The translations under genes were made by a program, and so were the position numbers. From contig OX459104.1 in NCBI GenBank assembly GCA_949775045.1, forward strand, positions 7,109,427-7,173,426: DNA of 64,000 nucleotides, written 5' to 3'. Source of the stretch: Metridium senile. Its lineage: Eukaryota; Cnidaria; Anthozoa; Actiniaria; Metridiidae. Positions within the stretch are counted from its first letter, which is position 1; every line of letters starts with the position of its first letter. Of the stretch, positions 29,233 to 64,000 are shown piece after piece. The notes below the pieces were generated by a model. The model made no database searches. It was given only the letters and a program-made list of their open reading frames with translations, and had not been told where the DNA came from.

Positions 29233-30319
29233 AACTGCCGATACTAGACTTCCAATGCCAGCATGTGAGATTATGGCTCTATTAAAATTATGCCTTGAAT
29301 CTACATTCTTTCAATTCAATGGTAAACATTACAAACAGCTTCACGGCACAGCTATGGGTTCTCCTGTCTCTGTGGTTGTCGCAGAGATTGTGATGCAGAA
29401 AATCGAACAAAAAGCCCTTGAAACGTATGAACAGCCGTTACCATTCTGGTTTCGATATGTAGATGATACCATAACTGCCTTACCATCAGATGATATTGAC
29501 GCCTTTCATAACCACTTAAACGATCAGAACCCTCATATACAGTTTACCAGAGAGCTTGAGGATAACGGTAAAATACCATTCTTAGACTGCCTAGTTAGCC
29601 GCCACGACAATACCCTACACACTACTGTATACCGTAAGCCTACTAATACAGACAGGTTACTTGACCAATCATCATATAACCCAACATCTCACAAGGCTAC
29701 GACCATCAAAACTCTTTCAAGGCGTGCTCAAATCATTTGTGACTCAGCAGATAGTTTACACAGTGAGACTCAACATCTAAAAAATGTGTTTCATAAGAAC
29801 AACTATAGCGATAAGTTTATTAATACCAACACGCATAAACCAAGAAATCATAGGGAAAGTCTTATTGACATGTCTTCCTCGCCCAAATCCTATATTTCAC
29901 TACCATACATCAGAGGGACGTCAGAGATCATATCACGTATTTTACAACCGCACAACATCAGCGTAGCTCATAAACCCATATCTACACTACGCCAGATCCT
30001 GACTAAGGTTAAAGACAAAGACAGTCCTAATGATCGAATCGGTGCTATATATAAAATTGCATGTAATGACTGTGAGGCTACATATATTGGTGAAACAGGT
30101 AGATCGTTTAATACTAGAAAACAGGAACATCAGAAAGCAGTTCAACAACAGGACAATCGAAACAACATCGCCATGCATTATACCAAGACTGGACATTCCA
30201 TTAACTGGGATTCTGGTGAATGTATTTCTTTTAGTGGGACTTATGCCGCTAATTACACCCAAGCGGTTCAGCCATACAACAAGACCGATGCCGCTAATGA
30301 CGCTACATCCATTAATTAG
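29189..30319 (+). CDS. Penelope-like reverse transcriptase + GIY-YIG endonuclease (5' partial, internally deleted)
   Basis: 376 codons, of which the first dozen belong to the junction with the inverted copy. Reverse transcriptase motif B is HGTAMGSPVSVVVAEI near residue 52 and motif C is the catalytic RYVDDT near 90. The IPFLDCLVSR and VYRKPTNTDRLL segments typical of Penelope elements follow near 129-155. The GIY-YIG nuclease domain is near 281-310: AIYKIACNDCEATYIGETGR with downstream Arg and His (RKQEH). The enzyme would nick target DNA and prime reverse transcription. Motif A and everything upstream are absent, and about 50 codons near the C-terminus are deleted relative to the inverted copy. 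This copy should therefore be inactive despite its open frame. Confidence 0.9.
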   Translation: MVNQLSRTKALLENTTADTRLPMPACEIMALLKLCLESTFFQFNGKHYKQLHGTAMGSPVSVVVAEIVMQKIEQKALETYEQPLPFWFRYVDDTITALPSDDIDAFHNHLNDQNPHIQFTRELEDNGKIPFLDCLVSRHDNTLHTTVYRKPTNTDRLLDQSSYNPTSHKATTIKTLSRRAQIICDSADSLHSETQHLKNVFHKNNYSDKFINTNTHKPRNHRESLIDMSSSPKSYISLPYIRGTSEIISRILQPHNISVAHKPISTLRQILTKVKDKDSPNDRIGAIYKIACNDCEATYIGETGRSFNTRKQEHQKAVQQQDNRNNIAMHYTKTGHSINWDSGECISFSGTYAANYTQAVQPYNKTDAANDATSIN

Positions 30320-41283: not shown

Positions 41284-41426
41284 ACTGATCCAGAAGTGAA
41301 CGATGCATGCGAAATACATTGCAATTGCCCTTATTTTAGTGTTTGCCATGATTGGCAACGCCATTGGTGAGTATAGAATGATTTTCCATCGTCCGTAAAA
41401 AATAGTACGCATAATAGAGACCCTGT

Positions 41427-41469
<43 letters not shown>

Positions 41470-44400
41470 TACATTATAACGAATCACTCAGTTGTAACGA
41501 TCACTGAGAAAGGTCTATAAGTTTAGATCGAAACGTCTGGATAAATTTAACCAAAATCAGGCAAGAGTCAAACCCATTTGTATTTTAATATGAATCCTGG
41601 CTGCAAATTTGACATTTTAATAATTTGTATATACTAGTGACTACTATTTAGTCACTATCACGCAACCAAAAATATCAAATACAAACTTGAAGGAAAAAAT
41701 TAATACCTCATTTAATGGATATAGTGCTCTAGCACAAGAACGAATTATTTAACAAGTTTTATTAACATTTCTGATCATCTATGACCGCCCGCGATGGAAG
41801 ACAAAGCCTTCCCACAAATAAAGTGAAAGGCGAGAGTTAAAAGTGAAACTCATGACTATTGACTGATACTATCTCTTTTGTCTTTTCATAGCAGGACATG
41901 TCCGTCCACCTCCGGCAGATGCTCCAATCAAGCGAGGTAAATATCCGCACTACCCTAACTTTATACTCACTGTGTTCTATGCATCACAAGAAAAAAAGCA
42001 GTATTTAAAGTGCACCTGACGGCGCCCTTCATGATATTTTGCAAATCTGTTGTACATGAGGTGTATAATAAGTATACTTAATAGGTGACGTTATGAGGTG
42101 ACGTTATCCCAGGAATTTGTCAAAGTTTTGCTTCCAAGCTGACAGCAAGCTTGTTTTTGTAAAGTAGTAAAAATGTCGATGGTAGTGTGAATATTAGTAA
42201 TACAGATATTGAGCTTTAAAAAATTGCTATAATTGTTTTCAGAGAACTACAACTTTTGTATATTTAATGAGGCCTGGGATGAAGTCACCTAATTTGCATT
42301 TTCAGATTTCAAATATTTATAATTTCAGAAAGGAGAGGTCGACATCAAGAAAAATTAAGTACACTTATTATACACCTCATGTACAACAGATTCGCAAAAT
42401 ATCATATGAAAGGCATCAGGTGCATTTTGATAGATGCCAAAAAATATATATCGTCTTTTGTCAAATATAACTAACTTACGGTACGTATACTATTTCACTC
42501 ATAAACTTGGCGGCAGGAATGAGAAAGGAAGGATATCATTCAGTTTGTAAATCGGTTTCAATGGTGAGAATAATCACGCAGGATTGAGTTAGGATGTACA
42601 GGATAAAAGTACAAATTTATGTCGACTACTAAACAGCTATTATTAAATATTTATCCAATCAATGTTAAAGGGTTCAGATTTCTTATTCCCTATATGAAAA
42701 ATACCATTTTCGAGTTTGATGTTACCGTGCATGAATAATATTTTTCATATCAATATATCTCCTAAACAATTTTGCCGTTCGTGCGCTCTTGCATATTTGA
42801 AATACAAACAATTATGTGAATATCGCGATACAAATACAATAGTTTATAACTATTATGTAGCCTCCTCCGCAGGCTACTCTTTAGGGATTCCTTTGTTGAA
42901 CCGATCTGGATTCCTGTGTTGCAATATTTGGCAGGGAAGAACTGGGGACGAGATAGGAGAAGAGATTTTTTCTCCTCACCACAGTAAGCCCGATGAAAAG
43001 AAATATAAGAGATGCTTGCCGAGGAGGTTAATAACTACACTTGGCCGAAACCAAGAACGAGCGTCAACAAACAAATGTGACAATCTAGATCTCTTGAAAC
43101 ATGAATAATACGAATACAAATTGTCTAAAACCGACATGAGATTGTGGTAGATTTATTAATAAATGGCGAGACCATATTAACATATCGATCAGGGTCTTGA
43201 CAAGAGATTTGTTCGTGCACGTGATCGATTATACAAAAAATTGATCTCTGAACCCAAACTGTTTCCAGATGATCCTAGCTGAACCCATTTGATGAATTTG
43301 ATGTTCAAAATTATTGCATAGACTTTGACAAAGGCGAGAGTTAAAAGTGAAACTCATGACTATTGACTGATACTATCTCTTTTGTCGTTTCATCGCAGGA
43401 CATGTCCGTGCACCTCCGGGAGATGCTCCAATCAAGCTAGGTAAAAATACAAACAACCCCAACTTTATACTTATAGCCATATTCCATATTTTTTTTCTGG
43501 TTTTCGTACTTGAAGCGTAGCTTGCAGTGAAAGCCAGCTGTCAAAGTAGAACTAAAAACTGTTTATTTTAGTGCTCACTGTGTTCTATGCATTACAAGAA
43601 AAAAAGCAGTATTTAAAGTGCACCTGACGGCGCCCTTCATGATATTTTGCAAATCTGTTGTACATGAGGTGTATAATAAGTATACTTAATAGGTGACGTT
43701 ATGAGGTGACGTTATCCCAGGAATTTGTCAAAGTTTTGCTTCCAAGCTGACAGCAAGCTTGTTTTTGTAAAGTAGTAAAAATGTCGATGGTAGTGTGAAT
43801 ATTAGTAATACAGATATTGAGCTTTAAAAAATTGCTATAATTGTTTTCAGAGAACTACAACTTTTGTATATTTAATGAGGCCTGGGATGAAGTCACCTAA
43901 TTTGCATTTTCAGATTTCAAATATTTATAATTTCAGAAAGGAGAGGTCGACATCAAGAAAAATTAAGTACACTTATTATACACCTCATGTACAACAGATT
44001 CGCAAAATATCATATGAAAGGCATCAGGTGCATTTTGATAGATGCCAAAAAATATATATCGTCTTTTGTCAAATATAACTAACTTACGGTACGTATACTA
44101 TTTCACTCATAAACTTGGCGGCAGGAATGAGAAAGGAAGGATATCATTCAGTTTGTAAATCGGTTTCAATGGTGAGAATAATCACGCAGGATTGAGTTAG
44201 GATGTACAGGATAAAAGTACAAATTTGTGTCGACTACTAAACAGCTATTATTAAATATTTATCCAATCAATGTTAAAGGGTTCAGATTTCTTATTCCCTA
44301 TATGAAAAATACCATTTTCGAGTTTGATGTTACCGTGCATGAATAATATTTTTCATATCAATATATCTCCTAAACAATTTTGCCGTTCGTGCGCTCTTGC

Positions 44401-47400
44401 ATATTTGAAATACAAACAATTATGTGAATATCGCGATACAAATACAATAGTTTATAACTATTATGTAGCCTCCTCCGCAGGCTACTCTTTAGGGATTCCT
44501 TTGTTGAACCGATCTGGATTCCTGTGTTGCAATATTTGGCAGGGAAGAACTGGGGACGAGATAGGAGAAGAGATTTTTTCTCCTCACCACAGTAAGCCCG
44601 ATGAAAAGAAATATAAGAGATGCTTGCCGAGGAGGTTAATAACTACACTTGGCCGAAACCAAGAACGAGCGTCAACAAACAAATGTGACAATCTAGATCT
44701 CTTGAAACATGAATAATACGAATACAAATTGTCTAAAACCGACATGAGATTGTGGTAGATTTATTAATAAATGGCGAGACCATATTAACATATCGATCAG
44801 GGTCTTGACAAGAGATTTGTTCGTGCACGTGATCGATTATACAAAAAATTGATCTCTGAACCCAAACTGTTTCCAGATGATCCTAGCTGAACCCATTTGA
44901 TGAATTTGATGTTCAAAATTATTGCATAGACTTTGACAAAGGCGAGAGTTAAAAGTGAAACTCATGACTATTGACTGATACTATCTCTTTTGTCGTTTCA
45001 TCGCAGGACATGTCCGTGCACCTCCGGGAGATGCTCCAATCAAGCTAGGTAAATATCTACACTACCCCAACTTTATACTTATAGCCATATTCCATATTTT
45101 TTTTCTGGTTTTCGTACTTGAAGCGTAGCTTGCAGTGAAAGCCAGCTGTCAAAGTAGAACTAAAAACTGTTTATTTTAGTGCTCACTGTGTTCTATGCAT
45201 TACAAGAAAAAAAGTAGTATTTAAAGTGCACCTGACGGCGCCCTTCATGATATTTTGCAAATCTGTTGTACATGAGGTGTATAATAAGTATACTTAATAG
45301 GTGACGTTATGAGGTGACGTTATCCCAGGAATTTGTCAAAGTTTTGCTTCCAAGCTGACAGCAAGCTTGTTTTTGTAAAGTAGTAAAAATGTCGATGGTA
45401 GTATGAATATTAGTAATACAGATATTGAGCTTTAAAAAATTGCTATAATTGTTTTCAGAGAACTACAACTTTTGTATATTTAATGAGGCCTGGGATGAAG
45501 TCACCTAATTTGCATTTTCAGATTTCAAATATTTATAATTTCAGAAAGGAGAGGTCGACATCAAGAAAAATTAAGTACACTTATTATACACCTCATGTAC
45601 AACAGATTCGCAAAATATCATATGAAAGGCATCAGGTGCATTTTGATAGATGCCAAAAAATATATATCGTCTTTTGTCAAATATAACTAACTTACGGTAC
45701 GTATACTATTTCACTCATAAACTTGGCGGCAGGAATGAGAAAGGAAGGATATCATTCAGTTTGTAAATCGGTTTCAATGGTGAGAATAATCACGCAGGAT
45801 TGAGTTAGGATGTACAGGATAAAAGTACAAATTTGTGTCGACTACTAAACAGCTATTATTAAATATTTATCCAATCAATGTTAAAGGGTTCAGATTTCTT
45901 ATTCCCTATATGAAAAATACCATTTTCGAGTTTGATGTTACCGTGCATGAATAATATTTTTCATATCAATATATCTCCTAAACAATTTTGCCGTTCGTGC
46001 GCTCTTGCATATTTGAAATACAAACAATTATGTGAATATCGCGATACAAATACAATAGTTTATAACTATTATGTAGCCTCCTCCGCAGGCTACTCTTTAG
46101 GGATTCCTTTGTTGAACCGATCTGGATTCCTGTGTTGCAATATTTGGCAGGGAAGAACTGGGGACGAGATAGGAGAAGAGATTTTTTCTCCTCACCACAG
46201 TAAGCCCGATGAAAAGAAATATAAGAGATGCTTGCCGAGGAGGTTAATAACTACCATTGGCCGAAACCAAGAACGAGCGTCAACAAACAAATGTGACAAT
46301 CTAGATCTCTTGAAACATGAATAATACGAATACAAATTGTCTAAAACCGACATGAGATTGTGGCAGATTTATTAATAAATGGCGAGACCATATTAACATA
46401 TCGATCAGGGTCTTGACAAGAGATTTGTTCGTGCACGTGATCGATTATACAAAAAATTGATCTCTGAACCTCTTATAGTACAAATTTGTGTCGACTACTA
46501 AACAGCTATTATTAAATATTTATCCAATCAATATTAAAGGGTTCAGATTTCTTATTCCCTATATGAAAAATACCATTTTCGAGTTTGATGTTACCGTGCA
46601 TGAATAATATTTTTCATATCAATATATCTCCTAAACAAAGTTGCCGTTCGTGCGCTCTTGCATATTTGAAATACAAACAATTATGTGAATATCGCGATAC
46701 AAATACAATAGTTTATAACTATTATGTAGCCTCCTCCGCAGGCTACTCTTTAGGGATTCCTTTGTTGAACCGATCTGGATTCCTGTGTTGCAATATTTGG
46801 CAGGGAAGAACTGGGGACGAGATAGGAGAAGAGATTTTTTCTCCTCACCACAGTAAGCCCGATGAAAAGAAATATAAGAGATGCTTGCCGAGGAGGTTAA
46901 TAACTACCATTGGCCGAAACCAAGAACGAGCGTCAACAAACAAATGTGACAATCTAGATCTCTTGAAACATGAATAATACGAATACAAATTGTCTAAAAC
47001 CGACATGAGATTGTGGCAGATTTATTAATAAATGGCGAGACCATATTAACATATCGATCAGGGTCTTGACAAGAGATTTGTTCGTGCACGTGATCGATTA
47101 TACAAAAAATTGATCTCTGAACCCAAACTGTTTCCAGATGATCCTAGCTGAACCCATCTGATGAATTTGATGTTCAAAATTATTGCATAGACTTTGACAA
47201 AGGCGAGAGTTAAAAGTGAAACTCATGACTATTGACTGATACTATCTCTTTTGTCGTTTCATCGCAGGACATGTCCGTGCACCTCCGGGAGATGCTCCAA
47301 TCAAGCTAGGTAAATATCTACACTACCCCAACTTTATACTTATAGCCATATTCCATATTTTTTTTCTGGTTTTCGTACTTGAAGCGTAGCTTGCAGTGAA

Positions 47401-50400
47401 AGCCAGCTGTCAAAGTAGAACTAAAAACTGTTTATTTTAGTGCTCACTGTGTTCTATGCATTACAAGAAAAAAAGTAGTATTTAAAGTGCACCTGACGGC
47501 GCCCTTCATGATATTTTGCAAATCTGTTGTACATGAGGTGTATAATAAGTATACTTAATAGGTGACGTTATGAGGTGACGTTATCCCAGGAATTTGTCAA
47601 AGTTTTGCTTCCAAGCTGACAGCAAGCTTGTTTTTGTAAAGTAGTAAAAATGTCGATGGTAGTATGAATATTAGTAATACAGATATTGAGCTTTAAAAAA
47701 TTGCTATAATTGTTTTCAGAGAACTACAACTTTTGTATATTTAATGAGGCCTGGGATGAAGTCACCTAATTTGCATTTTCAGATTTCAAATATTTATAAT
47801 TTCAGAAAGGAGAGGTCGACATCAAGAAAAATTAAGTACACTTATTATACACCTCATGTACAACAGATTCGCAAAATATCATATGAAAGGCATCAGGTGC
47901 ATTTTGATAGATGCCAAAAAATATATATCGTCTTTTGTCAAATATAACTAACTTACGGTACGTATACTATTTCACTCATAAACTTGGCGGCAGGAATGAG
48001 AAAGGAAGGATATCATTCAGTTTGTAAATCGGTTTCAATGGTGAGAATAATCACGCAGGATTGAGTTAGGATGTACAGGATAAAAGTACAAATTTGTGTC
48101 GACTACTAAACAGCTATTATTAAATATTTATCCAATCAATGTTAAAGGGTTCAGATTTCTTATTCCCTATATGAAAAATACCATTTTCGAGTTTGATGTT
48201 ACCGTGCATGAATAATATTTTTCATATCAATATATCTCCTAAACAATTTTGCCGTTCGTGCGCTCTTGCATATTTGAAATACAAACAATTATGTGAATAT
48301 CGCGATACAAATACAATAGTTTATAACTATTATGTAGCCTCCTCCGCAGGCTACTCTTTAGGGATTCCTTTGTTGAACCGATCTGGATTCCTGTGTTGCA
48401 ATATTTGGCAGGGAAGAACTGGGGACGAGATAGGAGAAGAGATTTTTTCTCCTCACCACAGTAAGCCCGATGAAAAGAAATATAAGAGATGCTTGCCGAG
48501 GAGGTTAATAACTACCATTGGCCGAAACCAAGAACGAGCGTCAACAAACAAATGTGACAATCTAGATCTCTTGAAACATGAATAATACGAATACAAATTG
48601 TCTAAAACCGACATGAGATTGTGGCAGATTTATTAATAAATGGCGAGACCATATTAACATATCGATCAGGGTCTTGACAAGAGATTTGTTCGTGCACGTG
48701 ATCGATTATACAAAAAATTGATCTCTGAACCTCTTATAGTACAAATTTGTGTCGACTACTAAACAGCTATTATTAAATATTTATCCAATCAATATTAAAG
48801 GGTTCAGATTTCTTATTCCCTATATGAAAAATACCATTTTCGAGTTTGATGTTACCGTGCATGAATAATATTTTTCATATCAATATATCTCCTAAACAAA
48901 GTTGCCGTTCGTGCGCTCTTGCATATTTGAAATACAAACAATTATGTGAATATCGCGATACAAATACAATAGTTTATAACTATTATGTAGCCTCCTCCGC
49001 AGGCTACTCTTTAGGGATTCCTTTGTTGAACCGATCTGGATTCCTGTGTTGCAATATTTGGCAGGGAAGAACTGGGGACGAGATAGGAGAAGAGATTTTT
49101 TCTCCTCACCACAGTAAGCCCGAGTAGTATGCGAGTACCAATCCTACGCCACCCGCACCGGCGGTGCGCCGGTGCAACCCAGAAACAAAGGAAATTCCTC
49201 ATATTTCAAATTCCTTAGCATGCGTCGAACAAAAGAAGACGCGGCGTCCTTTTGCAGAACAAAGGAAATTCTCGGCTCTAGGATTAAATGTGGCGTCCTA
49301 TTTCGCTAAACAAAAGAAATTCTTCATATCTAAAACTCCTAAGCGTCATTTTTAAAATTCCTTTAATAATAGCGGTTTTTCTAACTACAAACATGCGCGT
49401 CACCAAATGCAAATCTTTTGTGTTTAGTTCATTGACAAAAGAAATGCTTGATATTGAAGTCAACAAACAAAAATTGTGTTATATCAGTATTTCTTACTGA
49501 TAGAACACGAGAACGACGGCCATTTAATAGCTTTTTTTTTTTTTTTGTGATATTTATTATGATAATGTGTTTTTACAGTCTTGGCGCGTGCCGCGTCACC
49601 ACCTGCAAATCTATTGTTTAGTTCATAGACAAAATAATTTTTTTTGTTTTTGAAGTAAAATTGCAATGCTTGCCTATAAATCGAGAAATAAACAAACAAA
49701 ATTATGGCGTTAGATATTCCTTACTGATATAACAAAAATAGACTACGCAGTTCTTTCTTTTTAAACAATAATAAGTGTGCCGAATTAAACAATAACACAT
49801 CGTAGCTAGGTATAGTCAATTAAAGGTTGAATGAGTACATTTGTAAACATTGAGTAATTCAACGGGTTTTATTAGCTTTTCTTAATTAAACTTTAACTAA
49901 CCTTAAAGTTAAAACTTTTAAAACAGTTTTTGCGATTAGTTTTTGGAGCAATTACTAATCTTACTGATATAACAAGAGAACGAAGAACTTCTTACTTTTC
50001 AAACACTAATATTATAATAATGAGTTTGTACAATTAGTCTGGGCGCGTGCCTATTGTTTAACTTATCCTTGTACATGTTTTGTTTGTTTATCAAATTTAA
50101 ATCATTAAATGAGTTTGAGCAGTTTGTATTCTATATATAATGCTATATAACTTTTAACATATCCGATAATTGAAAGTATCCATTATATTTCTTCGACTGG
50201 CTTTTCTCCCGACTGCGTTAAGTCTGTCAGCCTCGTAGAGGCATATCTTGTAATGATGAAAATATTATATAGTAATTATATTATATAGTAATTATTATAT
50301 AGTATGAAACCCAGGATGATGAGGACAAACCCAGGATGATGAGGACAAACCCAGGATGACAAGGACAAACGGGATTAAATTCAACTTGTTGTGTATTCCC

Positions 50401-53400
50401 CTAGCCTATTGTGCTGACATTGCAGTTTTCTCTTTGAGTTTGTCAACATCCCCAGACTTGCCCCGCGATTCCACCAATACAAATACGGAGTTATTCATAC
50501 ATATATGGCATACTTTTTAAAAACATTTATTGAGGATAAGATATAATAAAGGAGACGACAGCTTATATAGTCATTTGAAAAGGGAACGCTATAAGAGAAC
50601 CATGTCTCATTCCGACTCCGGCTATGAAGATGAAAGTTTGCATAGTGATGAGGAAAGTATCCAGGAAAGCGATGACTCTTCTGAAGACAGTCATGAAGAG
50701 GATGAGCTGGATGATGGGGTCGAAGTGAACGTCTGGGAAAGACTTCAAAGCGAAGCGGTCAAAAGGCATGAAGACGAATGGGAAGATTTGGTACAGAAAT
50801 ATAAGCAAAATGGGGATAGTGATGAAATAGCAAAAGTTAAAGCGAGTAATGCCGTGGTTCCTACTTTCAGAAAAGAACTCAGGGAGGTTCTATTTGAGCA
50901 CCTAAAATGGATGCACTATTTGAAAAAGGATTCTCTTTATAAAAAAGTTATGACTACCAAGAAAAACCTAATTGATATGGAAGACTATAGCTGGGAAGAA
51001 GCAACTGAATCAGCCATAAACCAAAGAAAGTTTTTGCTCAACAAACTGTTTTCGAAACAAGAAGTTCCTATACAAAGTCCGGTGAATTTTGACACTTTTA
51101 ACCCACATGATTGCAAATTTCACAGATGATTATGTTATCGTGTACAAGCATAATGTGTATCTTTAATAAAAATATATATTCATAAACGGTAAAGTCTAGT
51201 CTTGTTTGATTTTTAAAACGTATGCCATATGTATGAATAACTCCGTATTTGTATTGGTGGAATCGCGGGGCAAGTCTGGGGATGTTGACAAACTCAAAGA
51301 GAAAACTGCAATGTCAGCACAATAGGCTAGGGGAATACACAACAAGTTGAATTTAATCCCGTTTGTCCTTGTCATCCTGGGTTTGTCCTCATCATCCTGG
51401 GTTTGTCCTCATCATCCTGGGTTTTGTCCTGCTCATCCTGGGTTTTGTCCTGCTCATCCTTGCCTTAAACCTCGATAAATGTGAACATTTGGGGTAAACG
51501 TCGTCTTTTCCAAGAGAACGTCAAAGTATCAACATGGTCAATCGAGTCTGTCGTGATTGTCCTATCCCTGATTGTGGAGCGAAATACTTGGTGAAACTAT
51601 CAAATCATCTAACTGATGTACATCAATTAGATCACATTGAACGAAGGAAATGCCTACAAGAAGCAAAACTTCAGCCGAAAGTAAAAGTGGTTGTCTATCT
51701 CGACTCTAAAGAGAAGAATAAATTAAAGTATGAAGATAGCATTGTTTATGAACCATCTTTACCAAGAAAGCCACAACAAGTCCAAAGACGGAAAAAGATC
51801 AGTAGACCTCGAAACGTAAAGAGAAAATCAAAGAAAGCTCTCTGAGCTATGAACCCACTTTGGTTTGCAGAATATATAATATTTTCATCATTACAAGATA
51901 TGCCTCTACGAGGCTGACAGACTTTACGCAGTCGGGAGAAAAGCCAGTCGAAGAAATAGATTGGATACTTTCAATTATCGGATATGTTAAAAGTTATAGA
52001 GCATTATATATATAGAATACAAACTGTTCAAACTCATTTAATGATTTAAATTTGATAAACAAACAAAACATGTACAATGATAAGTTAAACAATAGGCACG
52101 CGCCCAGACTAATTGTACAAACTCATTATCATAATATTAGTGTTTGAAAAGTAAGAAGTTCTTCGTTCTCTTGTTATATATCAGTAAGATTAGTAATTGC
52201 TCCAAAAACTAAACGCAAAAACTGTTTTAAAAGTTTTAACTTTAAGGTTAGTTAAAGTTTAATTAAGTAAAGCTAATAAAACCCGTTGAATTACTCAATG
52301 TTTACAAATGTACTCATTCAACCTTTAATTGACTATACCTAGTTACGATGTGTTATTGTTTAATTCGGCACACTTATTATTGATTAAAAAGAAAGAACTG
52401 CGTAGTCTATTTTTGTTATATCAGTAAGGAATATCTAACGCTATAATGTTGTTTGTTTATTTCTCGATTTATAGGCAAGCATTGCAATTTTACTTCAAAA
52501 ACAAGAAATTCTTTTGTCTATGAACTAAACAATAGATTTGCAGGTGGTGACGCGGCACGCGCCAAGACTGTAAAAACACATTAGTTGGGGGAAAAAACAA
52601 CCCCACTATTATTAAAGGAATTTAAAAAATGATGCTATATCTAATCCTCAGATGAAGAATTTCTTTTGTTTAGCGAAATAGGACGCCACATTTAATCCTA
52701 GCGTCTTTTGTTTTGCAAATGGAAACCGCGTCTGTTTCTAGTTTCTTTTGTTCGACGCACGCTTAGGAATTTGAAATATGAGGAATTTCCTTTGTTTCTT
52801 GGTGGAACCGGCGGAACCGCCGGTTCGGGTGGCGTAGAAGCGGCATTCCATATCTACTAGCCCGATGAAAAGAAATATAAGAGATGCTTGCCGAGGAGGT
52901 TAATAACTACACTTGGCCGAAACCAAGAACGAGCGTCAACAAACAAATGTGACAATCTAGATCTCTTGAAACATGAATAATACGAATACAAATTGTCTAA
53001 AACCGACATGAGATTGTGGCAGATTTATTAATAAATGGCGAGACCATATTAACATATCGATCAGGGTCTTGACAAGAGATTTGTTCGTGCACGTGATCGA
53101 TTATACAAAAAATTGATCTCTGAACCCAAACTGTTTCCAGATGATCCTAGCTGAACCCATCTGATGAATTTGATGTTCAAAATTATTGCATAGACTTTGA
53201 CAAAGGCGAGAGTTAAAAGTGAAACTCATGACTATTGACTGATACTATCTCTTTTGTCGTTTCATCGCAGGACATGTCCGTGCACCTCCGGGAGATGCTC
53301 CAATCAAGCTAGGTAAATATCTACACTACCCCAACTTTATACTTATAGCCATATTCCATATTTTTTTTCTGGTTTTCGTACTTGAAGCGTAGCTTGCAGT

Positions 53401-56400
53401 GAAAGCCAGCTGTCAAAGTAGAACTAAAAACTGTTTATTTTAGTGCTCACTGTGTTCTATGCATTACAAGAAAAAAAGTAGTATTTAAAGTGCACCTGAC
53501 GGCGCCCTTCATGATATTTTGCAAATCTGTTGTACATGAGGTGTATAATAAGTATACTTAATAGGTGACGTTATGAGGTGACGTTATCCCAGGAATTTGT
53601 CAAAGTTTTGCTTCCAAGCTGACAGCAAGCTTGTTTTTGTAAAGTAGTAAAAATGTCGATGGTAGTATGAATATTAGTAATACAGATATTGAGCTTTAAA
53701 AAATTGCTATAATTGTTTTCAGAGAACTACAACTTTTGTATATTTAATGAGGCCTGGGATGAAGTCACCTAATTTGCATTTTCAGATTTCAAATATTTAT
53801 AATTTCAGAAAGGAGAGGTCGACATCAAGAAAAATTAAGTACACTTATTATACACCTCATGTACAACAGATTCGCAAAATATCATATGAAAGGCATCAGG
53901 TGCATTTTGATAGATGCCAAAAAATATATATCGTCTTTTGTCAAATATAACTAACTTACGGTACGTATACTATTTCACTCATAAACTTGGCGGCAGGAAT
54001 GAGAAAGGAAGGATATCATTCAGTTTGTAAATCGGTTTCAATGGTGAGAATAATCACGCAGGATTGAGTTAGGATGTACAGGATAAAAGTACAAATTTGT
54101 GTCGACTACTAAACAGCTATTATTAAATATTTATCCAATCAATGTTAAAGGGTTCAGATTTCTTATTCCCTATATGAAAAATACCATTTTCGAGTTTGAT
54201 GTTACCGTGCATGAATAATATTTTTCATATCAATATATCTCCTAAACAATTTTGCCGTTCGTGCGCTCTTGCATATTTGAAATACAAACAATTATGTGAA
54301 TATCGCGATACAAATACAATAGTTTATAACTATTATGTAGCCTCCTCCGCAGGCTACTCTTTAGGGATTCCTTTGTTGAACCGATCTGGATTCCTGTGTT
54401 GCAATATTTGGCAGGGAAGAACTGGGGACGAGATAGGAGAAGAGATTTTTTCTCCTCACCACAGTAAGCCCGATGAAAAGAAATATAAGAGATGCTTGCC
54501 GAGGAGGTTAATAACTACCATTGGCCGAAACCAAGAACGAGCGTCAACAAACAAATGTGACAATCTAGATCTCTTGAAACATGAATAATACGAATACAAA
54601 TTGTCTAAAACCGACATGAGATTGTGGCAGATTTATTAATAAATGGCGAGACCATATTAACATATCGATCAGGGTCTTGACAAGAGATTTGTTCGTGCAC
54701 GTGATCGATTATACAAAAAATTGATCTCTGAACCTCTTATAGTACAAATTTGTGTCGACTACTAAACAGCTATTATTAAATATTTATCCAATCAATATTA
54801 AAGGGTTCAGATTTCTTATTCCCTATATGAAAAATACCATTTTCGAGTTTGATGTTACCGTGCATGAATAATATTTTTCATATCAATATATCTCCTAAAC
54901 AAAGTTGCCGTTCGTGCGCTCTTGCATATTTGAAATACAAACAATTATGTGAATATCGCGATACAAATACAATAGTTTATAACTATTATGTAGCCTCCTC
55001 CGCAGGCTACTCTTTAGGGATTCCTTTGTTGAACCGATCTGGATTCCTGTGTTGCAATATTTGGCAGGGAAGAACTGGGGACGAGATAGGAGAAGAGATT
55101 TTTTCTCCTCACCACAGTAAGCCCGATGAAAAGAAATATAAGAGATGCTTGCCGAGGAGGTTAATAACTACACTTGGCCGAAACCAAGAACGAGCGTCAA
55201 CAAACAAATGTGACAATCTAGATCTCTTGAAACATGAATAATACGAATACAAATTGTCTAAAACCGACATGAGATTGTGGCAGATTTATTAATAAATGGC
55301 GAGACCATATTAACATATCGATCAGGGTCTTGACAAGAGATTTGTTCGTGCACGTGATCGATTATACAAAAAATTGATCTCTGAACCCAAACTGTTTCCA
55401 GATGATCCTAGCTGAACCCATCTGATGAATTTGATGTTCAAAATTATTGCATAGACTTTGACAAAGGCGAGAGTTAAAAGTGAAACTCATGACTATTGAC
55501 TGATACTATCTCTTTTGTCGTTTCATCGCAGGACATGTCCGTGCACCTCCGGGAGATGCTCCAATCAAGCTAGGTAAATATCTACACTACCCCAACTTTA
55601 TACTTATAGCCATATTCCATATTTTTTTTCTGGTTTTCGTACTTGAAGCGTAGCTTGCAGTGAAAGCCAGCTGTCAAAGTAGAACTAAAAACTGTTTATT
55701 TTAGTGCTCACTGTGTTCTATGCATTACAAGAAAAAAAGTAGTATTTAAAGTGCACCTGACGGCGCCCTTCATGATATTTTGCAAATCTGTTGTACATGA
55801 GGTGTATAATAAGTATACTTAATAGGTGACGTTATGAGGTGACGTTATCCCAGGAATTTGTCAAAGTTTTGCTTCCAAGCTGACAGCAAGCTTGTTTTTG
55901 TAAAGTAGTAAAAATGTCGATGGTAGTATGAATATTAGTAATACAGATATTGAGCTTTAAAAAATTGCTATAATTGTTTTCAGAGAACTACAACTTTTGT
56001 ATATTTAATGAGGCCTGGGATGAAGTCACCTAATTTGCATTTTCAGATTTCAAATATTTATAATTTCAGAAAGGAGAGGTCGACATCAAGAAAAATTAAG
56101 TACACTTATTATACACCTCATGTACAACAGATTCGCAAAATATCATATGAAAGGCATCAGGTGCATTTTGATAGATGCCAAAAAATATATATCGTCTTTT
56201 GTCAAATATAACTAACTTACGGTACGTATACTATTTCACTCATAAACTTGGCGGCAGGAATGAGAAAGGAAGGATATCATTCAGTTTGTAAATCGGTTTC
56301 AATGGTGAGAATAATCACGCAGGATTGAGTTAGGATGTACAGGATAAAAGTACAAATTTGTGTCGACTACTAAACAGCTATTATTAAATATTTATCCAAT

Positions 56401-59400
56401 CAATGTTAAAGGGTTCAGATTTCTTATTCCCTATATGAAAAATACCATTTTCGAGTTTGATGTTACCGTGCATGAATAATATTTTTCATATCAATATATC
56501 TCCTAAACAATTTTGCCGTTCGTGCGCTCTTGCATATTTGAAATACAAACAATTATGTGAATATCGCGATACAAATACAATAGTTTATAACTATTATGTA
56601 GCCTCCTCCGCAGGCTACTCTTTAGGGATTCCTTTGTTGAACCGATCTGGATTCCTGTGTTGCAATATTTGGCAGGGAAGAACTGGGGACGAGATAGGAG
56701 AAGAGATTTTTTCTCCTCACCACAGTAAGCCCGATGAAAAGAAATATAAGAGATGCTTGCCGAGGAGGTTAATAACTACCATTGGCCGAAACCAAGAACG
56801 AGCGTCAACAAACAAATGTGACAATCTAGATCTCTTGAAACATGAATAATACGAATACAAATTGTCTAAAACCGACATGAGATTGTGGCAGATTTATTAA
56901 TAAATGGCGAGACCATATTAACATATCGATCAGGGTCTTGACAAGAGATTTGTTCGTGCACGTGATCGATTATACAAAAAATTGATCTCTGAACCTCTTA
57001 TAGTACAAATTTGTGTCGACTACTAAACAGCTATTATTAAATATTTATCCAATCAATATTAAAGGGTTCAGATTTCTTATTCCCTATATGAAAAATACCA
57101 TTTTCGAGTTTGATGTTACCGTGCATGAATAATATTTTTCATATCAATATATCTCCTAAACAAAGTTGCCGTTCGTGCGCTCTTGCATATTTGAAATACA
57201 AACAATTATGTGAATATCGCGATACAAATACAATAGTTTATAACTATTATGTAGCCTCCTCCGCAGGCTACTCTTTAGGGATTCCTTTGTTGAACCGATC
57301 TGGATTCCTGTGTTGCAATATTTGGCAGGGAAGAACTGGGGACGAGATAGGAGAAGAGATTTTTTCTCCTCACCACAGTAAGCCCGATGAAAAGAAATAT
57401 AAGAGATGCTTGCCGAGGAGGTTAATAACTACCACTGGACGAAACCAAGAACGAGCGTCAACAAACAAATGTGACAATCTAGATCTCTTGAAACATGAAT
57501 AATACGAATACAAATTGTCTAAAACCGACATGAGATTGTGGCAGATTTATTAATAAATGGCGAGACCATATTAACATATCGATCAGGGTCTTGACAAGAG
57601 ATTTGTTCGTGCACGTGATCGATTATACAAAAAATTGATCTCTGAACCCAAACTGTTTCCAGATGATCCTAGCTGAACCCATCTGATGAATTTGATGTTC
57701 AAAATTATTGCATAGACTTTGACAAAGGCGAGAGTTAAAAGTGAAACTCATGACTATTGACTGATACTATCTCTTTTGTCGTTTCATCGCAGGACATGTC
57801 CGTGCACCTCCGGGAGATGCTCCAATCAAGCTAGGTAAATATCCACACTACCCCAACTTTATACTTATAGCCATATTCCATATTTTTTTTCTGGTTTTCG
57901 TACTTGAAGCGTAGCTTGCAGTGAAAGCCAGCTGTCAAAGTAGAACTAAAAACTGTTTATTTTAGTGCTCACTGTGTTCTATGCATTACAAGAAAAAAAG
58001 CAGTATTTAAAGTGCACCTGACGGCGCCCTTCATGATATTTTGCAAATCTGTTGTACATGAGGTGTATAATAAGTATACTTAATAGGTGACGTTATGAGG
58101 TGACGTTATCCCAGGAATTTGTCAAAGTTTTGCTTCCAAGCTGACAGCAAGCTTGTTTTTGTAAAGTTGTAAAAATGTCGATGGTAGTGTGAATATTACT
58201 AATATAGATATTGAGCTTTAAAAAATTGCTATAATTGTTTTCAGAGAACTACAACTTTTGTATATTTAATGAGGCCTGAGATGAAGTCACCTAATTTGCA
58301 TTTTCAGATTTCAAATATTTATAATTTCAGAAAGGAGAGGTCGACATCAAGAAAAATTAAGTACACTTATTATACACCTCATGTACAACAGATTCGCAAA
58401 ATATCATATGAAAGGCATCAGGTGCATTTTGATAGATGCCAAAAAATATATATCGTCTTTTGTCAAAAATAACTAACTTACGGTACGTATACTATTTCAC
58501 TCATAAACTTGGCGGCAGGAATGAGAAAGGAAGGATATCATTCAGTTTGTAAATCGGTTTCAATGGTGAGAATAATCACGCAGCATTGAGTTAGGATGTA
58601 CAGGATAAAAGTACAAATTTGTGTCGACTACTAAACAGCTATTAATAAATATTTATCCAATCAATGTTAAAGTGTTCAGATTTCTTATTCCCTATATGAA
58701 AAATACCATTTTCGAGTTTGATGTTACCGTGCATGAATAATATTTTTCATATCAATATATCTCCTAAACAAAGTTGCCGTTCGTGCGCTCTTGCATATTT
58801 GAAATACAAACAATTATGTGAATATCGCGATACAAATACAATAGTTTATAACTATTATGTAGCCTCCTCCGCAGGCTACTCTTTAGGGATTCCTTTGTTG
58901 AACCGATCTGGATTCCTGTGTTACAATATTTGGCAGGGAAGAACTGGGGACGAGATAGGAGAAGAGATTTTTTCTCCTCACCACAGTAAGCCCGATGAAA
59001 AGAAATATAAGAGATGCTTGCCGAGGAGGATAATAACTACCACTGGACGAAACCCAGAACGAGCGTCAACAAACAAATGTGACAATCTAGATCTCTTGAA
59101 ATATGAATGATACGAATACAAATTGTCTAAAACCCACATGAGATTGTGGCCGATTTATTAATAAATGGCAAGACCATATTAACATATCGATCAGGGTCTT
59201 GACAAGAGATTTGTTCGTGCACGTGATCGATTATACAAAAAATTGATCTCTGAACCCAAACTGTTTCCAGATGATCCTAGCTGAACCCATCTGATGAATT
59301 TGATGTTCAAAATTATTGCATAGACTTTGACAAAGGCGAGAGTTAAAAGTGAAACTCATGACTATTGAATGATAATATCTCTTTTGTCGTTTCATCGCAG

Positions 59401-62400
59401 GACATGTCCGTGCACCTCTGGGAGATGCTCCAATCAAGCTAGGTAAATATCCACACTACCCCAACTTTATACTTATAGCCATATTCCATATTTTTTTTCT
59501 GGTTTTCGTACTTGAAGCGTAGCTTGCAGTGAAAGCCAGCTGTCAAAGTAGAACTAAAAACTGTTTATTTTAGTGCTCACTGTGTTCTATGCATCACAAG
59601 AAAAAAAGCAGTATTTAAAGTGCACCTGACGGCGCCCTTCACGGGTTTCTTACTTAAAGCGTAGCTTGCAGTGAAAGAAATCGGTTAAAGTAGAACTAAA
59701 CACTGTTTATTTTAGTGCATACTGTGTTCTATGCATCGCCAGAAAAATCGAACCAAAAGGGGAGGAGCTTAATATGTAGATTTTATAGAACATAAATAGA
59801 TGCCAATCAAATACTTTGTCTTTTGTCAAATATGATTGGCTTACGGTACGTGTACTATTACTCTGATACACATCTCGGTAGGAATGAGAAAGTAATTATA
59901 TCATTCAGTTTGAAAATTGGCTTCAAGGTTGAGAATGTTCACGCTGGATTATTGAGGTACGACGTACAGGCCTACCAGTACAAATTTGTGTCGACTACTA
60001 CACAACTATAGTATCAAAATATATTATCCAATCAACGTTAAAGGGTTCAGATATCTTAGTCCCTAGATGAAAATTACTATATTCGTGGTTGATGTCACCG
60101 TGGAATAATATTTTAAACAAAATTGCCGTTCGTGCGCTCTTGCATATTTGAAATACAAACAATTATGTGAATATCGCGATACAAATACAATAGTTTATAA
60201 CTATTAAGAAGCCTCCTCCGCAGGCTACTCTTGAGGGATTCCTTTGTTGAACCGATCTGCATTCCTGTCTTGCAATATTTGGCAGGAAAGAACTGGGGAC
60301 GAGATAGGAGAAGATATTTTTTCTCCTCACAACAGTTTAAGCCCGATGAAAAGAGATATAAGAGATGCTTGCCGAGGAGGTTAATAACTACCACTGGACG
60401 AAACCCAGAACGAGCGTCAACAAACAAATGTGACAATCTAGATCTCTTGAAATATGAATGATACGAATACAAATTGTCTAAAACCCACATGAGATTGTGG
60501 CCGATTTATTAATAAATGGCGAGACCATATTAACATATCGATCAGGGTTTTGACAAGAGATTTTTCCGTGCACGTGATCGATTATACAAAAAACTGATCT
60601 CTGATCCCAAACTGGTTCCAGATGATCCCAGCTGAACCGATCTGATGAATTTGATGTTCAAAATTATTGCATAGGCTTTGACAATCAAAAAAATTGTTAT
60701 ATCAACAGGTTACAAAAATCACTGCAGTTTCTTGTTTTTTTTTAATCTTTAGAATGAATTAAATGATTGTTATGATAGAATAAATTTATTGTATGCACAC
60801 ATATTCTTGACTCTTTGTATCTATCACCAACTATTACGCACTACTACAAACTAGTTAGTCATTTTTCTTTCACGGACGACGGAACATCACTCTACCTTCG
60901 TAAAGAAGGTTTAGATATCATGTCAAAGTATTAGAGCGAAAACACCAAAACCATTAAATAAAAACAAAATAGCTACTAACTAATATAGTTTCTATATAGT
61001 GACTACTATTTAGTCACTATCACTCAACCAGAAATATCAAATACAAAAGGAAAAATACAATACCTCATTTAATGGATATAGTGCTCAAGCACAAGAACGA
61101 ATTATTTAACAAGTTTTATTAACATTTCTGATCATCTATGACCACCTGTGATGGAAGACAAAGCCTTCCCACACAACAGTGAAAGGCGAGAGTTAAAATT
61201 GAAACTCATGACTATTGACTGATACTATCTGTTTTGTCTTTTCATCGCAGGACAACGCCCACCAGGAAGAGTAGATGCTCCAATCAAGCGAGGTAAATAT
61301 CCACACTACCCTAACTTTATAGCCATATTCCAAATTTTCTTTTCGGGTTTCTTACTTTGTCTTTTGTCAAATATGATTGGCTTACGGTACGTGTACTATT
61401 ACTCTGATACACATCTCGGTAGGAATGAGAAAGTAAGGATATCATTCAGTTTGAAAATTGGCTTCAAGGTTGAGAATGTTCACGCTGGATTATTGAGGTA
61501 CGACGTACAGGCCTACCAGTACAAATTTGTGTCGACTACTACACAACTATAGTATCAAAATATATTATCCAATCAACGTTAAAGGGTTCAGATATCTTAG
61601 TCCCTAGATGAAAATTACTATATTCGTGGTTGATGTCACCGTGGAATAATATTTTAAACAAAATTGCCGTTCGTGCGCTCTTGCATATTTGAAATACAAA
61701 CAATTATGTGAATATCGCGATACAAATACAATAGTTTATAACTATTAAGAAGCCTCCTCCGCAGGCTACTCTTGAGGGATTCCTTTGTTGAACCGATCTG
61801 CATTCCTGTCTTGCAATATTTGGCAGGAAAGAACTGGGGACGAGATAGGAGAAGATATTTTTTCTCCTCACAACAGTTAAAGCCCGATGAAAAGAGATAT
61901 AAGAGATGCTTGCCGAGGAGGTTAATAACTACCACTGGACGAAACCCAGAACGAGCGTCAACAAACAAATGTGACAATCTAGATCTCTTGAAATATGAAT
62001 GATACGAATACAAATTGTCTAAAACCCACATGAGATTGTGGCCGATTTATTAATAAATGGCGAGACCATATTAACATATCGATCAGGGTTTTGACAAGAG
62101 ATTTTTCCGTGCACGTGATCGATTATACAAAAAACTGATCTCTGATCCCAAACTGGTTCCAGATGATCCCAGCTGAACCGATCTGATGAATTTGATGTTC
62201 AAAATTATTGCATAGGCTTTGACAATCAAAAAAATTGTTATATCAACAGGTTACAAAAATCACTGCAGTTTCTTGTTTTTTTTTTAATCTTTAGAATGAA
62301 TTAAATGATTGTTATGATCGAATAAATTTATTGTATGCACACATATTCTTGACTCTTTGTATCTATCACCAACTATTACGCACTACTACAAACTAGTTAG

Positions 62401-62834
62401 TCATTTTTCTTTCACGGACGACGGAACATCACTCTACCTTCGTAAAGAAGGTTTAGATATCATGTCAAAGTATTAGAGCGAAAACACCAAAACCATTAAA
62501 TAAAAACAAAATAGCTACTAACTAATATAGTTTCTATATAGTGACTACTATTTAGTCACTATCACTCAACCAGAAATATCAAATACAAAAGGAAAAATAC
62601 AATACCTCATTTAATGGATATAGTGCTCAAGCACAAGAACGAATTATTTAACAAGTTTTATTAACATTTCTGATCATCTATGACCACCTGTGATGGAAGA
62701 CAAAGCCTTCCCACACAACAGTGAAAGGCGAGAGTTAAAATTGAAACTCATGACTATTGACTGATACTATCTGTTTTGTCTTTTCATCGCAGGACAACGC
62801 CCACCAGGAAGAGTAGATGCTCCAATCAAGCGAG
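41284..62834 (+). CDS. Secreted repetitive Pro-rich peptide precursor encoded by a micro-exon array (gene span, 3' end outside window)
   Basis: One signal-peptide exon and ten micro-exons on the plus strand. All micro-exons are exactly 42 nt, phase 1-1, preceded by a pyrimidine tract with tcatcgcag (tcatagcag in the first) and followed by gtaaa. Splicing in any number therefore keeps the frame. Each adds 14 residues of the form G-(HV/Q)-R-P/A-P-...-D-A-P-I-K-(R/L). The reading frame predicts a secreted concatemer. Lys-Arg at the end of the first and last two repeats could be prohormone-convertase sites, as in cnidarian neuropeptide precursors; proline-rich antimicrobial precursors such as insect apidaecin are another analogy. 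I recognise no exact family. Units of 1.5-2.3 kb carry one micro-exon each, and introns hold MITEs. Transcription of the whole array is inferred, not shown. Confidence 0.72.
41303..41366 (+). CDS. Exon 1: signal peptide of the micro-exon gene
   Basis: The ATG at 41303 opens 21 codons plus one base: MHAKYIAIALILVFAMIGNA, then Ile, then G split by the intron. It has a positive N-terminus, a hydrophobic core of about 13 residues, and a plausible cleavage after GNA. The donor is g|gtgagt at 41367. Upstream, tttctcctttcatctatttaattttag ends at 41283 and looks like an acceptor, so a further 5' untranslated exon probably exists and this exon starts at 41284. Confidence 0.8.
41429..41468. repeat. Poly-G tract of 40 bases in intron 1
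   Basis: An uninterrupted G run. It is a likely G-quadruplex former on the plus strand and a difficult region for assembly, so its length is uncertain. Confidence 0.9.
41895..41936 (+). CDS. Micro-exon 1: GHVRPPPADAPIKR
   Basis: 42 nt between tcatagcag and gtaaatat. The Gly codon is completed by the last base of exon 1. Ends in Lys-Arg. The preceding intron sequence (from about 41630) is homologous to that before the micro-exons at 61251 and 62793, marking this as an ancestral-type unit. Confidence 0.8.
42008..42428. mobile_element. Intronic MITE (copy 1 of 7, plus one truncated)
   Basis: Ends agtgcacctgacggcgccc and atcaggtgcattttga are inverted, with further pairing of gttgtacatgaggtgtata with tatacacctcatgtacaac. 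Other copies lie at 43616, 45224, 47485, 53488, 55749 and 58010 (each about 420 bp). Only the first 25 bases or so remain near 59615. Units after 61.2 kb lack it, showing the empty site. Confidence 0.85.
42716..43108 (+). other. Repeat-borne 130-codon ORF (first of ten closely related copies)
   Basis: Present in every expanded unit (42716, 44324, 45932, 46585, 48193, 54196, 54849, 56457, 57110, 58718, plus one cut by insertion at 48846). It lies in the introns of the micro-exon gene. In the diverged units (60.2, 61.8 and 63.5 kb) the same DNA is open only in a different upstream frame, while the last 40 codons (DEK-x-YKRCLPRR to LLK-x-E stop) stay in frame. The frame is therefore not conserved as a whole, and I do not call it a gene. 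Confidence 0.25.
43399..43440 (+). CDS. Micro-exon 2: GHVRAPPGDAPIKL
   Basis: 42 nt between tcatcgcag and gtaaaaat. The final Arg of micro-exon 1 is replaced by Leu (CGA to CTA), removing the dibasic site. First of the amplified class. Confidence 0.78.
   Translation, partial: DMSVHLREMLQSS
45007..45048 (+). CDS. Micro-exon 3: GHVRAPPGDAPIKL
   Basis: Same 42-nt exon as micro-exon 2, 1608 bp downstream, with donor gtaaatat. Confidence 0.78.
   Translation, partial: DMSVHLREMLQSS
45825..47130. repeat. 653-bp internal duplication making the 2261-bp unit
   Basis: The segment starting gtacaaatttgtgtcgacta at 45825 repeats at 46478, with a junction at tctctgaacctcttata. Three further units downstream carry the same junction (48.7, 54.7 and 57.0 kb), so the duplication occurred once and was then amplified. 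Confidence 0.9.
47268..47309 (+). CDS. Micro-exon 4: GHVRAPPGDAPIKL
   Basis: 42 nt, 2261 bp after micro-exon 3. Flanks are the same as in the other amplified units. Confidence 0.78.
   Translation, partial: DMSVHLREMLQSS
49155..49175. other. Subterminal GC hairpin, left end of the 3.7-kb element
   Basis: gcaccggcg / cgccggtgc pair over nine bases around a gtg loop, about 30 bases from the end. The counterpart is at 52805-52826. Confidence 0.7.
50602..51129 (+). CDS. ORF1 of the 3.7-kb element: acidic helical protein of unknown function
   Basis: 175 residues from the ATG at 50602 (gaaccATGTCT); the frame is open 24 codons further up, but only from a TTG. The first 50 residues are Ser/Asp/Glu-rich (SDSGYEDESLHSDEESIQES). 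The rest is predicted helical with basic and aromatic patches: WERLQSEAVKRHEDEWEDLV, FRKELREVLFEHLKWMHYLK, and EDYSWEEATESAINQRKFLL. An aataaa (about 51164) follows the stop within 40 bases, a fitting poly(A) signal. It lies in the unique spacer between the arms, so it exists once per element. I recall similar small acidic proteins accompanying cnidarian and molluscan repeats but cannot name a family. No catalytic motif seen. Confidence 0.7.
   Translation: MSHSDSGYEDESLHSDEESIQESDDSSEDSHEEDELDDGVEVNVWERLQSEAVKRHEDEWEDLVQKYKQNGDSDEIAKVKASNAVVPTFRKELREVLFEHLKWMHYLKKDSLYKKVMTTKKNLIDMEDYSWEEATESAINQRKFLLNKLFSKQEVPIQSPVNFDTFNPHDCKFHR
51534..51845 (+). CDS. ORF2 of the 3.7-kb element: small C2H2-like zinc-finger basic protein
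   Basis: 103 residues from an ATG at 51534. A C2H2-type finger at about residues 9-30 reads CPIPDCGAKYLVKLSNHL then TDVH (C-x4-C...H-x4-H). The C-terminal 25 residues are Lys/Arg-rich (RRKKISRPRNVKRKSKKAL), suggesting nucleic-acid binding. It lies within the right inverted arm, but the left arm lacks it: there 50250-50310 has only a short ttatatagtaatta filler at the matching place. It may be a DNA-binding partner of ORF1 or of a transposase supplied elsewhere; this is inference. Confidence 0.7.
   Translation: MVNRVCRDCPIPDCGAKYLVKLSNHLTDVHQLDHIERRKCLQEAKLQPKVKVVVYLDSKEKNKLKYEDSIVYEPSLPRKPQQVQRRKKISRPRNVKRKSKKAL
52805..52826. other. Subterminal GC hairpin, right end of the 3.7-kb element
   Basis: gaaccggcgg / ccgccggttc pair over ten bases around an aa loop. 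Relative to the left hairpin one pair has changed from C-G to A-T with pairing kept. Confidence 0.7.
53271..53312 (+). CDS. Micro-exon 5: GHVRAPPGDAPIKL
   Basis: 42 nt. Separated from micro-exon 4 by 6003 bp because the 3.7-kb element interrupts this intron. Confidence 0.78.
   Translation, partial: DMSVHLREMLQSS
55532..55573 (+). CDS. Micro-exon 6: GHVRAPPGDAPIKL
   Basis: 42 nt, 2261 bp after micro-exon 5. Acceptor tcatcgcag, donor gtaaatat. Confidence 0.78.
   Translation, partial: DMSVHLREMLQSS
57793..57834 (+). CDS. Micro-exon 7: GHVRAPPGDAPIKL
   Basis: 42 nt, 2261 bp after micro-exon 6. The downstream intron starts to diverge (gtaaatatcc) towards the older units. Confidence 0.78.
   Translation, partial: DMSVHLREMLQSS
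59401..59442 (+). CDS. Micro-exon 8: GHVRAPLGDAPIKL
   Basis: 42 nt with one replacement (CCG to CTG, Pro to Leu), 1608 bp after micro-exon 7. The intron behind it carries only the truncated MITE end (about 59615-59642). Confidence 0.76.
   Translation, partial: DMSVHLWEMLQSS
61251..61292 (+). CDS. Micro-exon 9: GQRPPGRVDAPIKR
   Basis: 42 nt with a divergent N-terminal half, a conserved DAPIK end, and the dibasic Lys-Arg restored. After Gly the N-terminal Gln could become pyroglutamate if processed, as is common in cnidarian neuropeptides. Confidence 0.78.
62793..62834 (+). CDS. Micro-exon 10: GQRPPGRVDAPIKR
   Basis: Identical to micro-exon 9, 1542 bp downstream, acceptor tcatcgcag, donor gtaaatat. 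No terminal exon is found before the window ends. Confidence 0.78.
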
Positions 62835-64000
62835 GTAAATATCCACACTACCCTAACTTTATAGCCATATTCCAAATTTTCTTTTCGGGTTTCTTACTTA
62901 AAGCGTAGCTTGCAGTGAAAGAAATCGGTTAAAGTAGAACTAAAAACTGTTTATTTTAGTGCATACTGTGTTCTATGCATCGCCAGAAAAATCGAACCAA
63001 AAGGGGAGGAGCTTAATATGTAGATTTTATAGAACATAAATAGATGCCAATCAAATACTTTGTCTTTTGTCAAATATGATTGGCTTACGGTACGTGTACT
63101 ATTACTCTGATACACATCTCGGTAGGAATGAGAAAGTAAGGATATCATTCAGTTTGAAAATTGGCTTCAAGGTTGAGAATGTTCACGCTGGATTATTGAG
63201 GTACGACGTACAGGCCTACCAGTACAAATTTGTGTCGACTACTACACAACTATAGTATCAAAATATATTATCCAATCAACGTTAAAGGGTTCAGATATCT
63301 TAGTCCCTAGATGAAAATTACTATATTCGTGGTTGATGTCACCGTGGAATAATATTTTAAACAAAATTGCCGTTCGTGCGCTCTTGCATATTTGAAATAC
63401 AAACAATTATGTGAATATCGCGATACAAATACAATAGTTTATAACTATTAAGAAGCCTCCTCCGCAGGCTACTCTTGAGGGATTCCTTTGTTGAACCGAT
63501 CTGCATTCCTGTCTTGCAATATTTGGCAGGAAAGAACTGGGGACGAGATAGGAGAAGATATTTTTTCTCCTCACAACAGTTTAAGCCCGATGAAAAGAGA
63601 TATAAGAGATGCTTGCCGAGGAGGTTAATAACTACCACTGGACGAAACCCAGAACGAGCGTCAACAAACAAATGTGACAATCTAGATCTCTTGAAATATG
63701 AATGATACGAATACAAATTGTTTAAAACCCACATGAGATTGTGGCCGATTTATTAATAAATGGCGAGACCATATTAACATATCGATCAGGGTCTTGACAA
63801 GAGATTTTTCCGTGCACGTGATCGATTATACAAAAAATTGATCTCTGATCCCAAACTGGTTCCAGATGATCCCAGCTGAACCGATCTGATGAATTTGATG
63901 TTCAAAATTATTGCATAGGCTTTGACAATCAAAAACATTGTTATATCAACAGGTTACAAAAATCACTGCAGTTTCTTGTTTTTTTTTAATCTTTAGAATG

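Follow-up and report, generated by a model that had tools for sequence, protein, structure and literature searches.

A cnidarian genome, that of Metridium senile, contains an array of ten 42-nt segments that probably represents a genuine peptide gene made of micro-exons, a familiar gene architecture in a new form. The array lies at the end of the window that we analysed (a stretch of 64,000 nucleotides). We give somewhat better than even weight to the reading that it is part of a protein-coding gene, one that makes a secreted, repetitive peptide precursor from a signal exon and a chain of micro-exons. A phase-1 signal exon would be spliced to a series of symmetric phase 1-1 micro-exons, with 14 residues added by each. 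The length of every exon is divisible by 3 and its two phases are equal, so that the duplication or loss of a unit, or the skipping of an exon, keeps the reading frame. Unequal crossing-over between the kilobase units could add or remove 14-residue blocks in this way without a frameshift.

More tentatively, a cnidarian lineage may have independently evolved a micro-exon gene in which the copy number of kilobase units sets both output and diversity. Its frame-neutral 14-residue blocks, one of which would be gained or lost with each recombination event, would pair a fast-changing payload with a constant DAPIK processing tail, and individuals would differ in the dosage and mix of their peptides. 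If expressed, the gene would give an easy test of whether the copy number of a repeat unit tunes peptide dosage between individuals.

Predicted gene anatomy

The coding part of the signal exon is 64 nt long and ends in phase 1 (Table 1). Its most hydrophobic 9-mer in translation is IAIALILVF (mean 3.5), and the hydrophobic start MHAKYIAIALILVFAMIGNA, together with the phase-1 donor, predicts the N-terminal signal peptide that is characteristic of micro-exon gene (MEG) architecture. The donor stands at the 99.5th percentile of all GT dinucleotides; the 5' acceptor is weak (84th percentile).

All ten downstream segments are 42 nt with phase 1-1 as predicted exons, which is the form of MEG-type exons (a multiple of 3 with equal phases). 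Read in phase 1, they begin GHVR... or GQRP... The coordinates and the open frame thus bear out the initial annotation, which had proposed a signal exon with a donor followed by ten AG/GT-bounded exons of identical length and phase. Under the predicted splicing, the signal exon and the ten micro-exons form a stop-free sequence of 484 nt (161 residues). Each block would consist of a changeable front (GHVRPPPA, GHVRAPPG or GQRPPGRV) and a constant DAPIK tail. No terminal exon was found within the window; if one exists, it would start near 63997 or further on. Note that there are only four distinct sequences among the ten micro-exons (exon 1, exons 2 to 7, exon 8, and exons 9 and 10), so these are not ten independent observations.

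Table 1. Predicted exons and associated features, in window coordinates.
Feature	Position	Strand	Sequence or product	Remarks
Signal-peptide exon	41284..41366	+		Possible acceptor before 41284; ATG at 41303; donor GTGAGT from 41367
Signal exon, coding part	41303-41366	+	MHAKYIAIALILVFAMIGNAI plus first base of a Gly codon	Translation
Micro-exon 1	41895..41936	+	GHVRPPPADAPIKR	AG/GT bounded; phase-1 frame
Micro-exon 2	43399..43440	+	GHVRAPPGDAPIKL	AG/GT bounded; weakest donor of the ten (94th percentile)
Micro-exon 3	45007..45048	+	GHVRAPPGDAPIKL	AG/GT bounded
Micro-exon 4	47268..47309	+	GHVRAPPGDAPIKL	AG/GT bounded
Micro-exon 5	53271..53312	+	GHVRAPPGDAPIKL	AG/GT bounded
Micro-exon 6	55532..55573	+	GHVRAPPGDAPIKL	AG/GT bounded
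Micro-exon 7	57793..57834	+	GHVRAPPGDAPIKL	AG/GT bounded
Micro-exon 8	59401..59442	+	GHVRAPLGDAPIKL	AG/GT bounded
Micro-exon 9	61251..61292	+	GQRPPGRVDAPIKR	Strong divergence from exon 1 in the front half
Micro-exon 10	62793..62834	+	GQRPPGRVDAPIKR	Identical to exon 9
Possible acceptor of a next or terminal exon	63977..64000	+	TTTTTTTTTAATCTTTAG, then AATG	Exon would start at 63997; window ends 4 bases on; score at 94th percentile
111-nt candidate exon (symmetric, open, splice-like)	42873-42983 and ten further copies to 58875-58985			In repeat units and 653-bp partial copies
3.7-kb mobile-element-like insertion	49124..52858			Intron between micro-exons 4 and 5, inside one repeat unit

Amplification of kilobase units

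The start-to-start spacings of successive micro-exons are 1504, 1608, 2261, 6003, 2261, 2261, 1608, 1850 and 1542 nt. Eight of the nine match the units of 1.5 to 2.3 kb that had been described for this array; the 6.0-kb spacing does not, because an inverted-repeat element has inserted into that intron. The element has long inverted repeats (approximately 713 bp at 97%, 217 bp at 99%, and 382-bp ends at 75%) and is flanked by a target duplication of 6 to 7 bp (AGCCCGA at 49117-49123 and 52859-52865). Where the spacing is 2261 nt, it includes a further, partial copy of the unit that is 653 bp long. The first intron contains a run of 40 G (41429-41468), and another run of 20 G lies at 26780-26799.

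The 700 nt upstream of exons 2 to 8, with exon 5 left out, are 97.4 to 100% identical to one another, which supports the earlier proposal that kilobase units were amplified around a micro-exon. Upstream of exon 5, the corresponding 700 nt reach into the inserted element and show 68 to 70% identity. The likeness among exons 2 to 8 is uninformative, because the surrounding DNA is alike too. In particular, exons 2 to 7 are identical and their introns nearly so, and they therefore add no independent evidence.

This amplification of units 2 to 8 as whole kilobase blocks, with near-identical introns, is also what a non-coding tandem segmental repeat would look like. In such a repeat, one AG-42-GT stretch would be an unused or decayed exon, and the true gene, past or present, might comprise just the signal exon and exon 1. 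We regard this as the best-surviving alternative, possible and well short of an even chance.

Splice-site strength

We scored splice sites with approximate matrices. The ten acceptors fall between the 98.9th and 99.8th percentiles of all AG in the window, and the ten donors between the 94.2th and 98.8th percentiles of all GT. Ranked as AG...GT pairs, the micro-exons take places 2, 3, 6, 20 to 25 and 33 among the 1006 pairs of the region. The top-ranked pair spans 136 nt and uses the acceptor of exon 9, and the 111-nt candidates score in the same range as the micro-exons. Furthermore, the 41 kb upstream of the gene hold pairs that score equally high (top score 19.35, versus 18.77 for the best micro-exon). 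AG/GT boundaries alone are thus weak evidence for exons, and chance splice-like pairs of equal score elsewhere are compatible with a non-coding repeat. What chiefly raises the pattern above chance is the comparison of diverged units.

Divergence between units 1 and 9

Unit 9 departs from unit 1 at 17 of 295 aligned intron positions (upstream, 16 mismatches in 266 aligned bases plus nine gap columns; downstream, 1 in 29). Within the exon, 12 of the first 22 nt differ and none of the last 20. Exon length, frame and both splice sites are kept. No other 22-nt window in the 346-column alignment diverges as much as the exon front: with gap columns included, the front has 12 differences and the runner-up 8. 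The binomial probability of the front is 5e-10 for a single window, uncorrected for the choice of that window. For the unit tails, in three alignments of 912 columns each, the highest-scoring window reaches 19 and lies on a 19-column gap; the next five listed windows have at most 8.

Two other features of the exon are expected fairly often by chance. Zero changes in the rear 20 bases have a probability of approximately 31% at the intron rate. Approximately 80% of outcomes of 12 random changes in the front stay stop-free, so that the open frame of the diverged front is weak evidence. Taken as a whole, divergence that is concentrated in the front, with length, phase and splice sites kept, speaks for a genuine coding micro-exon whose front changes fast and whose DAPIK tail stays constant, and it argues against a non-coding repeat. 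Note that the divergence of exon 9 represents one lineage difference (exons 1 to 8 versus exons 9 and 10), perhaps a single multi-base event.

Aligned by hand at the codon level, exons 1 and 9 differ by two 3-nt indels and seven base changes (four nonsynonymous, three silent); ungapped, the counts are 8.5 nonsynonymous and 3.5 silent. Exons 1 and 2 differ by three nonsynonymous changes and no silent ones, and exons 2 and 8 by one and none. There is no excess of silent changes in any of these three pairs, and the exon comparisons therefore lend no support to purifying selection on the peptide. The changes are compatible with a front half that evolves under relaxed constraint or by diversification.

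Controls and a rival candidate exon

As a control, we collected symmetric candidate exons of 15 to 200 nt that are open in phase 1 and have both splice scores above 2 (or above a threshold of 0). Between units 1 and 9, one of three candidates with scores above 2 was kept, namely the 42-nt exon; all three are nested on one donor (45, 42 and 18 nt). None of the three candidates from units 8 and 10 was kept at this score, these three overlapping and sharing sites, and at the threshold of 0 one of eight was kept, a weak 21-nt candidate.

Eleven copies of the 111-nt candidate are open. In its three diverged copies (60224, 61765 and 63468), phase 1 is interrupted by a stop, and the donor scores −6.0 or −3.2 rather than 5.7; they keep the GT itself, and one other frame is open. 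A 130-aa intron ORF, with this 111-nt candidate inside it, was weighed as the true coding part and rejected on account of the phase-1 stop and weak donor in all three diverged copies. That the rival candidate is closed in phase 1 where the units diverge, and the micro-exon is not, counts against the non-coding alternative. The control is thin; together with the 111-nt comparison it favours the exon reading without proving it. Sequence and unit comparison thus lend qualified support to the original proposal that the array is a gene.

Predicted processing of the precursor

Judged by eye, signal cleavage would fall after GNA, and the mature chain would start IGHVR. Three of the ten micro-exons end in KR (exons 1, 9 and 10) and seven in KL (exons 2 to 8). 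A prohormone convertase could cut at the KR ends of blocks 1, 9 and 10, giving a first peptide of 13 residues and a piece of approximately 110 residues that holds exons 2 to 9, with exon 10 supplying the last peptide. Unless another protease acts, the seven KL blocks would remain attached to block 9. One 14-residue peptide per exon had been claimed: each exon does encode 14 residues, and release of a peptide is doubtful for the seven blocks that have no dibasic site, a feature that also suits a non-coding repeat. The QRPPGR of exons 9 and 10 could yield amidated pQRPP. Predicted peptide candidates include IGHVRPPPADAPI, GQRPPGRVDAPI, GHVRAPPGDAPIKL and pGlu-Arg-Pro-Pro-amide.

Two other coding strategies are conceivable. 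One, which we consider unlikely, resembles that of schistosome MEGs, with alternative inclusion of symmetric micro-exons producing many secreted variants. The array shares with it a signal exon, short symmetric exons and long introns, and something like a mobile element has inserted between two of its copies. Short exons of symmetric phase, signal peptides and an enrichment of transposon insertions are on record for MEGs (PMC8293314, PMC4350168). However, seven of the ten exons here encode nearly the same block, so skipping would alter length far more than sequence.

The least likely is a precursor of the cnidarian neuropeptide type, in which exons 9 and 10 give pGlu-Arg-Pro-Pro-amide from QRPPGR and the other blocks are related peptides or spacers: amidated preprohormones carry Gly and a basic residue after each copy, whereas Gly-Arg, the amidation signal of exons 9 and 10, is confined to these two of the ten blocks, and KR to three. 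Moreover, the would-be peptide varies and the would-be spacer DAPIK is constant, the opposite of the usual pattern. A signal peptide, tandem copies and KR, RR or R sites are nevertheless shared with hexacoral preprohormones, which have up to 50 copies (PMC7523074). On the main reading, our guess is that the micro-exon gene makes a secreted peptide of defence or effector type rather than a neuropeptide of the classical cnidarian kind, since its payload would be the part that changes.

Homology searches and neighbourhood

The 161-residue precursor had no protein homologs at E ≤ 1 among the 7993 scored candidates that shared most words with it, nor did a 77-residue query among 239 word-prefiltered candidates (together covering proteins of approximately 42 to 281 aa). 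This lack of homologs for the predicted precursor would also be expected of a non-coding repeat. We found no cnidarian case of the architecture in the open-licence literature, and no matches there for three peptide strings. The initial annotation knew of no described family with this sequence, which agrees with the protein searches in that size range and with the peptide-string search. Gene finders tend to miss 42-nt exons, and similar precursors may therefore be overlooked in other genomes.

Viral contigs contained no exact match to the DNA of the exon end with its donor, Rfam gave no matches at gathering thresholds, and a tRNA scan (bacterial code) found none. Pfam searches of nine ORFs returned only RVT_1 (two ORFs) and Phage_integrase (one ORF) above curated cut-offs; two ORFs of the repeat units (42716-43105, plus strand; 60116-60490, minus strand) had no match up to E 0.1.

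The remainder of the window holds several ORFs of mobile-element character. At 1246-3869, an ORF for a reverse transcriptase (RVT_1) precedes one for a tyrosine recombinase (Phage_integrase), presumably a DIRS-like pair, and an ORF at 29189-30319, with RVT_1 and GIY-YIG matches that are both under the Pfam cut-off, we take to be Penelope-like. A further RVT_1 reverse transcriptase ORF lies at 9319-10458 on the minus strand. The ORF at 16565-17668 (367 aa) has 52 relatives and weak C2H2 and HeH/LEM matches below cut-off; five of the 52 relatives are named, all from Scleractinia (three from Oculina patagonica, one from Porites lobata and one from Stylophora pistillata), which supports an anthozoan origin of the DNA.

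Comparison with known systems

Apidaecin-type antimicrobial precursors are like the array in carrying several proline-containing peptide copies in one secreted precursor. However, as the initial annotation stated, a single exon or a small number of exons usually holds all their copies, and here there is one predicted exon per copy.

The micro-exons of MEGs mostly differ among themselves, whereas here one exon type has been amplified together with its introns. In 1988, Davis reportedly described a gene of S. mansoni in which 81-base exons are repeated in tandem. Schistosoma MEGs are otherwise close to the array in outline: they are described as having a signal peptide, symmetric exons that are for the most part very short, an enrichment of transposon insertions and fast-evolving secreted products (PMC8293314, PMC4350168), as well as long introns (PMC10526429). 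The MEG families are described there as confined to schistosomes or platyhelminths (PMC8293314, PMC4350168), and the array, being cnidarian, is not a member.

Cnidarian preprohormones (GPRGamide, Antho-RFamide, GLWamide and others) are likewise secreted and contain many peptide copies, as reported for corals (PMC7523074). They differ in that amidation and dibasic sites occur in only a minority of blocks in the array; the comparison is one of precursor proteins.

The architecture has precedents in the schistosome genes and in the caerulein and magainin precursor genes of Xenopus laevis. Our predicted gene, by its anatomy and unit alignments, has one block per exon and exons duplicated with their introns, and the Xenopus genes, in the account that PMC3731216 gives of them, are a clear architectural precedent for such a one-block-per-exon array. 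For their repeats the authors propose recent duplication, slow evolution or gene conversion, and unequal crossing-over is mentioned (PMC3731216). In the related genes of S. tropicalis, peptides are flanked by RXXR, KR or RR (PMC3731216), whereas seven of the ten blocks here have no dibasic site. The caerulein and magainin genes belong to a vertebrate family derived from cck, and the likeness is one of architecture, not of sequence alignment. If the array is expressed, it would be a cnidarian case of a secreted peptide built from amplified symmetric micro-exons, having arisen by convergence with the skin peptides of frogs and the micro-exon genes of flukes.
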